A stretch of DNA of 64,000 nt from Leptotrichia wadei (GTDB lineage: Bacteria > Fusobacteriota > Fusobacteriia > Fusobacteriales > Leptotrichiaceae). Below the pieces are notes generated by a model. It had not been told where the DNA came from, did no database searches, and saw only the letters and a list, made by a program, of their open reading frames with translations. Made by a program: the position numbers and the translations under genes. Shown piece by piece: positions 25,092 to 27,793 of this stretch (position 1 is the stretch's first letter; the number at the start of each line of letters is the position of its first letter). The stretch is from assembly GCF_007990445.1 (NCBI RefSeq), contig NZ_AP019841.1, positions 2,108,001 to 2,172,000 of the forward strand. Reading direction: 5' to 3'.

Positions 25092-25757
25092 ATGAAAATA
25101 GAAGATCTGTCACTTTTTTTGACAAAAGTTTCACTGTTTAAAGGATTAAACCCTGATAAAATCGCAAAATATCTAACAGAAGTTGACTTTAAAATAAAAG
25201 AATATAAAAAGAATGAAATTGTATTTTTTCGTGGAGATATTTTAAAAAAAATTATTATTATTGTAAAAGGCACAGCACGTGGAGAAATGCAGAAATTTAA
25301 CGGAGATACAATTGTTATAAATCAAATGAAGGCTGGTGAAGTGCTGGCTTCTGCATTTTTATTCGGAAAAAATAATGTTTTCCCTGTTGATTTGATAGCT
25401 TTGGAAAATTCTGAATTTCTTTTTTTGGATAAGGAAAAATATCTGGATCTAATCCAGTCAGATAAAAGGCTTTTACTTAACTTTATAAGGGAAATTTCAA
25501 ATAAAAGCCAATATTTGTCAAAACGTATCTGGTTTAATTTTACACATAAGACAATTGAAGAAAAGATTCTTAGCTATATAAAAGAAAATGCTCAAGATGA
25601 TAAAATAAAGTTTTTGCCCAGTATTTCAGCTCTAGCAAAAAAATTTGAAGTAACAAGGCCCGCCTTATCAAGGGAAATTTCAAGTTTATGCAAAAGAAAA
25701 ATTTTAAAAAAAATAGAAAATAACGTTTATCTTATAAATTTTTCCAACTTTTTTTAA
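25092..25757 (+). CDS. Crp/Fnr-family transcriptional regulator
   Basis: A 221-residue protein. Residues 10-130 form a cyclic-nucleotide-type beta-roll (FFRGDILKKIIIIVKGTARG, KAGEVLASAFLFG) and the dimer helix follows. The C-terminal winged HTH is at about 150-215 (LPSISALAKKFEVTRPALSR, EISSLCKRKIL). There is no N-terminal Cys cluster, so it is not an iron-sulphur Fnr. It lacks the full PRXXR cAMP pocket, so the ligand is unknown. It is monocistronic and divergent from yqeK; a perfect promoter starts right behind it. Confidence 0.9.
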   Translation: MKIEDLSLFLTKVSLFKGLNPDKIAKYLTEVDFKIKEYKKNEIVFFRGDILKKIIIIVKGTARGEMQKFNGDTIVINQMKAGEVLASAFLFGKNNVFPVDLIALENSEFLFLDKEKYLDLIQSDKRLLLNFIREISNKSQYLSKRIWFNFTHKTIEEKILSYIKENAQDDKIKFLPSISALAKKFEVTRPALSREISSLCKRKILKKIENNVYLINFSNFF

Positions 25758-25765
25758 AAGAATGT

Positions 25766-25794
25766 TTGACATTTTTTCGTATAACAGTTATAAT
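25766..25794 (+). promoter_or_regulatory. consensus promoter upstream of the 6S-like RNA
   Basis: TTGACA (25766-25771), exactly 17 bases, then TATAAT (25789-25794): a perfect sigma-70/A promoter with no open frame behind it. A second TATAAT lies at 25850-25855, seven to nine bases before the structured RNA, so the RNA may have two promoters, as E. coli 6S RNA does. Confidence 0.8.
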
Positions 25795-25858
25795 ATTGAA
25801 GAAGTGAAAAGCAATAAATATTTTTGCTTAAATAAGAAATTCAAATATGTATAATATT

Positions 25859-26058
25859 TCTGGTCTATACGCCACTAACACCGAATTTTTGGGCTTTACT
25901 CTTTTTTAATGGGGTTATCCCTTTATAAATTGTCTCAGGAAAATCACGACTACTTTAAGTTTTGTACGGATTCTGTACAATTTATAAATATGACTACCAC
26001 CTGTAACATTTTGCAGGCAACCAAAAATTAAGTTAGAACGGTAGATCGGATTTTTTTT
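25859..26058 (+). ncRNA. ssrS: rod-shaped structured RNA, probable 6S RNA
   Basis: About 200 nt that fold into one long rod. The ends pair over ten positions (TCTGGTCTAT at 25859-25868 with GTAGATCGGA at 26041-26050, including G-U pairs), followed by eight T. Inside, CTAAC pairs with GTTAG and AATTTTTGG pairs perfectly with CCAAAAATT. After a large central bubble, TTTATAAATTGT (25922-25933) pairs perfectly with ACAATTTATAAA (25977-25988) as the apical stem. The 3' side of the bubble has its own hairpin, CCTGTAA-CATT-TTGCAGG. Length, closing stem, central bubble and terminal T run match 6S RNA, which binds sigma-70-type RNA polymerase. The name rests on structure, not on sequence identity. Confidence 0.65.

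Positions 26059-26196: not shown

Positions 26197-27793
<1,597 letters not shown>

Follow-up and report, generated by a model that had tools for sequence, protein, structure and literature searches.

6S RNA, well known from bacteria, shuts RNA polymerase down on nutrient exhaustion. Its Rfam family, RF00013, comprises the E. coli ssrS RNA and its relatives. In B. subtilis the 6S-1 gene, bsrA, sits between aspS and yrvM (PMC11077062), and the 6S gene of S. aureus is located behind aspS-hisS (PMC3386247).

In the window analyzed here, that is, the whole 64-kb stretch of Leptotrichia wadei DNA, the segment 25854-26056 (+) matched RF00013 from position 1 to position 187 of the 187 in the model, with 51.5 bits vs. 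a gathering score of 46.4. The first-pass annotation had proposed a likely 6S RNA at this site and had called for this very search, whose outcome agrees with the proposal. The margin of just 5 bits over the gathering score fits a divergent, AT-rich lineage, and no finding argued against the 6S identity. A search of the whole genome returned a single 6S copy, while B. subtilis carries 6S-2 in addition to 6S-1. The Rfam match, the structure, the covariation and the phylogenetic distribution are concordant, and 25854-26056 is a 6S RNA. With a probability of about 0.96, the region as a whole is the Leptotrichia 6S RNA gene (ssrS type), in which a primary-sigma promoter would drive a transcript trimmed to a rod of approximately 200 nt that binds the polymerase holoenzyme as a mimic of the open promoter and is released by pRNA synthesis. 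The locus and its two neighbors are made up as follows:

25092-25757 (+), gene of a Crp/Fnr-type regulator with a cNMP-binding domain (PF00027, E = 9.9e-14), outside the 6S unit
25766-25794 (+), 6S promoter of the sigma-70/A type, TTGACA-N17-TATAAT, an exact consensus conserved in relatives
25801-25858 (+), putative precursor leader 5' of the 6S RNA, presumably removed by trimming, as judged from the position of the promoter
25854-26056 (+), 6S RNA gene (RF00013), rod-shaped, ~200 nt, full-length Rfam match and sole copy in the genome
25859-25871/26039-26050 (+), closing stem of 12 bp with one bulge, predicted fold
25875-25879/26032-26036 (+), 5-bp helix, predicted fold
25884-25892/26021-26029 (+), perfect 9-bp inner stem (P2/downstream duplex), predicted fold
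25893-25909 (+), central bubble with a 17-nt unpaired 5' strand, unpaired probability 0.91-1.00 in the fold
25910-25999 (+), apical arm of the rod, from fold and covariation (helices 3-6)
25910-25918/25990-25999 (+), apical-arm helix, predicted fold
25922-25933/25977-25988 (+), perfect 12-bp apical-arm stem, predicted fold
26000-26006/26011-26017 (+), 7-bp hairpin within the 3' bubble strand, pairing probability mostly >0.95 in the fold
26021-26050 (+), 3' strands of the inner and closing stems, predicted fold
26051-26058 (+), T8 run directly 3' of the closing stem, probable 3' end
26197-27378 (-), tgt, convergent with the 6S gene

Compared to the RF00013 members, the Leptotrichia RNA has the same size, rod shape, central bubble, and closing and apical arms. 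It differs from the E. coli ssrS type in being very AT-rich and in its genomic neighbors. Further, the hairpin in the 3' strand of its bubble is preformed in the predicted free RNA, whereas the 3' bubble of E. coli 6S RNA is open until pRNA is made. A preformed 3'-bubble hairpin, an open 5' bubble strand and a downstream P2 helix are common to the Leptotrichia RNA and B. subtilis 6S-1, and the pRNA templates are similar as well (UAGUUUUGACCGAAC in 6S-1 and AAUUUUUGGGCUUUAC in Leptotrichia).

The segment 25850-26060 folded with a minimum free energy of -53.5 kcal/mol, compared to -33.6 +/- 3.9 in shuffled sequences (z = -5.16), and none of 200 shuffles folded as well. In line with what had been noticed from the letters, the fold contained both the perfect 9-bp inner stem (25884-25892/26021-26029) and the perfect 12-bp apical stem (25922-25933/25977-25988), along with the bubble hairpin (7 bp, 26000-26017) and the T-run end (T8, 26051-26058). 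The closing stem described before was also present; however, the 10 bp attributed to it represent the outer part of a stem that the fold extends to 12 bp with one bulge.

Covariation was analyzed in a first alignment of 26 Fusobacteriota 6S sequences found by Rfam's model. This gave a 49-pair consensus in which 27 pairs showed compensatory change, and 118 double-changed cells were counted vs. 30.7 +/- 4.5 in shuffles, a value that none of 500 shuffles reached. The proportion of paired cells was 96.2%, compared to 33-38% with slid partners. At the level of single helices, the closing stem was paired in 100% of cells and showed double changes in 4 of its 12 pairs, a complementarity of 6-10 bp at the inner stem was observed in 26/26 relatives, and double changes affected three of the five consensus pairs of the 3'-bubble hairpin (26000-26017). 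In 45 further sequences outside model building, 322 double-changed cells were found vs. 89 +/- 10 in shuffles (0/500 reaching the observed value), in an alignment fitted to the lineage model and thereby biased toward structure, whose slid controls gave 32-70 cells. Lack of covariation across related genomes had been named by the first-pass annotation as an argument against its proposal; both sequence sets covary strongly.

The perfect promoter pointed out in that annotation consists of TTGACA (25766-25771), a 17-nt spacer and TATAAT (25789-25794), and is the sole exact TTGACA-N17-TATAAT match in the 64-kb window, where 0.06 would be expected by chance. The DNA behind it is free of genes, as had also been stated, with no ORF of at least 60 aa between the end of the Crp-like gene (25757) and tgt (26197). 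TTGACA-N17 followed by TATAAT or TATACT was present in all 18 Leptotrichiaceae 6S loci without aspS linkage, 26-75 nt before the closing stem. At the 6S loci of Fusobacteriaceae, mostly TTGAAA plus TATAAT was found 11-20 nt before the model start; at loci such as L059 and L092-L101 the distance was mostly some 16-20 nt, and TG often preceded the -10 box. A second TATAAT at 25850-25855, adjoining the rod, was considered as a promoter and rejected: relatives retain 25766-25794 but not this TATAAT, which also lacks a good -35 box.

Transcription probably starts near 25801, approximately 58 nt before the rod, and the leader would therefore need trimming. Leader length varied from 20 to 69 nt among relatives; no conserved processing hairpin or other structure was found in the leader, which in most species folds no better than shuffles. 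At the other end, termination would take place at the T8 run (26051-26058), where GGATTTTTT is conserved in most Leptotrichiaceae.

By analogy with described 6S RNAs, we expect a transcript that is trimmed, bound by polymerase and used as a template for pRNA. The strong primary-sigma promoter would yield a 6S precursor to be trimmed to the ~200-nt rod, which would mimic an open promoter and engage the housekeeping sigma-RNA polymerase holoenzyme through its unpaired bubble. Bound 6S RNA would hold the polymerase back under nutrient scarcity. Once NTPs return, the polymerase would copy the 5' bubble strand into a short pRNA, with the start probably opposite C25899. This position, proposed by alignment with the B. 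subtilis 6S-1 pRNA (5'-GUUCGGUCAAAACUA), would give 5'-GUAAAGCCCAAAAAUU..., and the Rfam alignment places the pRNA start within 1 nt of it; the predicted pRNA begins GUAAAGCCC. pRNA synthesis would open the inner stem (25884-25892/26021-26029), as in B. subtilis 6S-1, and so free the enzyme. In folds with 9, 14 or 20 template nucleotides blocked, the inner stem opened, and this crude test predicted no counterpart of the B. subtilis collapse helix. Since this helix of 6S-1 is missing from the predictions, the Leptotrichia RNA was not filed as a 6S-1 sub-type.

Rfam's model detected 6S RNA in 26/98 Fusobacteriota genomes, in 21 of them above threshold. A lineage model (R1) built from these 26 sequences gave exactly one strong full-length match per genome in 95 of the 98. 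The weakest of the strong matches had E = 6.6e-17, a rough value from a short calibration, and the next candidates had E >= 0.2. When 20 of the R1 loci were searched with Rfam's 6S model at E <= 10, three sub-threshold 6S matches were obtained, which points to the curated model as the limiting factor. Given 95/98 with the lineage model vs. 26/98 with the curated one, an apparent absence of 6S RNA in Fusobacterium and relatives would be a search artefact; most Fusobacteriaceae copies (e.g., L059 and L092-L101) are missed by Rfam's 6S model. No 6S RNA was found behind aspS, with filters off, in two of the three genomes without an R1 match, and the third is 62% complete. In the literature searched, we found no account of 6S RNA from Leptotrichia or Fusobacterium; earlier reports may exist, and priority is not claimed.

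A DNA-pattern scan of all genomes recovered the expected Fusobacteriota, and its matches beyond them were apparently due to chance. Eight Elusimicrobia contigs (L149, L150, L165, L166, L179, L180, L195 and L198) matched the 6S-derived pattern, more than in other phyla. R1 did not support them as 6S RNA, giving one weak 15-bit match elsewhere on one contig, and Rfam assigned no family.

With regard to genomic context, 59 of the 95 Fusobacteriota 6S genes follow aspS in the same orientation at a distance of 17-152 nt. This was measured from the end of the aspS family HMM match and therefore overestimates the spacing from the stop codon. Most Fusobacteriota 6S genes are thus aspS-linked like B. 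subtilis bsrA, while the copy of the host genome lies instead behind the Crp-like gene, with aspS approximately 389 kb away and not adjacent to it. An aspS-6S order shared across two phyla supports orthology, and the linkage in 59/95 is model-independent evidence for 6S identity. The shared order also suggests, tentatively, that this arrangement is ancestral.

The place beside a Crp/Fnr-like gene and tgt had been highlighted in the first-pass annotation as a new context. The Crp-like gene is indeed a conserved neighbor in Leptotrichia and three related genera; however, tgt adjoins the 6S gene in just 4/13 Leptotrichia genomes. In the 64-kb window 103 nt separate the 6S RNA from the codirectional Crp-like gene upstream, and in 11 of 13 Leptotrichia (g1) genomes the 6S RNA is located 73-119 nt downstream of that gene. 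In the related genera (g3, g6 and g8) the 6S and Crp-like genes point toward each other, 250-669 nt apart, and in two Leptotrichia genomes (G080 and G069) the Crp-like gene is 6.8 and 54 kb away, with 6S and promoter intact. A functional unit of 6S RNA and the Crp-like gene was considered; as two genomes have lost the linkage while 6S is intact, we treat the linkage as neighborhood only. In one of them, the Crp-like gene (G080:C1:2093157-2093813), 6.8 kb from the intact 6S gene and promoter, contains an internal TGA. Elsewhere in the window, a CRISPR array of at least seven CRISPR-DR7 repeats (RF01320; 41126-41611, -) and a glmS ribozyme-riboswitch (RF00234; 44145-44321, -; 80.7 bits) were detected.

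Three other explanations were weighed against a 6S RNA gene. It is improbable that the segment encodes a new structured RNA resembling 6S in shape only, for instance one whose partner is a different form of RNA polymerase, as with the actinobacterial Ms1. Rod-shaped RNAs with other partners do exist, such as Ms1 (PMC9130861), and the Rfam score is close to the cut-off; against this, the 6S model was matched over its full length, bubble and hairpin are of the 6S-1 type, the pRNA template is similar to the one in B. subtilis 6S-1, and the orthologues share their aspS linkage with the 6S genes of Bacillus and Staphylococcus. The new structured RNA that the first-pass annotation had kept as an alternative is unnecessary.

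A cis-acting leader or terminator element, belonging to the Crp-like gene upstream or to tgt downstream, is less probable still. Read-through from the Crp-like gene, 103 nt away on the same strand, is possible, but a perfect promoter of its own precedes the RNA, tgt is convergent, and so is the Crp-like gene in g3, g6 and g8, while RNA and promoter are intact in G080 and G069, where that gene is 6.8 and 54 kb off. The least credible explanation, with next to no probability, is that inverted repeats arose by chance in AT-rich DNA between genes. An AT-rich genome has many short complementary stretches; however, none of the 200 shuffles folded as well, and the covariation refutes chance, with the compensatory changes of each of the two sequence sets exceeding those of every one of 500 shuffles. 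The Leptotrichia 6S gene is an ordinary 6S gene with a presumably ordinary function, and the 6S identity provides an annotation for 25854-26056 in Leptotrichia.

In the groups g9, g18, g5 and f4 (L021-L026, L011 and L056), the distance from the aspS stop codon to the start of 6S RNA is between a few and approximately 30 nt, and no near-consensus promoter was seen at these aspS-abutting loci. Here 6S RNA may be released by processing of aspS transcripts. A broader history, in which a near-universal Fusobacteriota 6S RNA lay ancestrally behind aspS and is cut from its message in g9, g5, g18 and f4, while in the Leptotrichia group the gene was relocated and gained a consensus promoter, is tentative, and we hold it to be somewhat less likely than its opposite. 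Two points lift the locus slightly above routine annotation and are of modest interest for annotation and locus history: 6S RNA is nearly universal in Fusobacteriota although the standard model detects it poorly, and the Leptotrichia group has left the aspS-linked locus. The aspS-6S order common to Fusobacteriota and Bacilli offers an easy means of locating and rooting 6S genes. If the proposed history were true, 6S supply would be tied to synthetase expression in some lineages and uncoupled from it in Leptotrichia.
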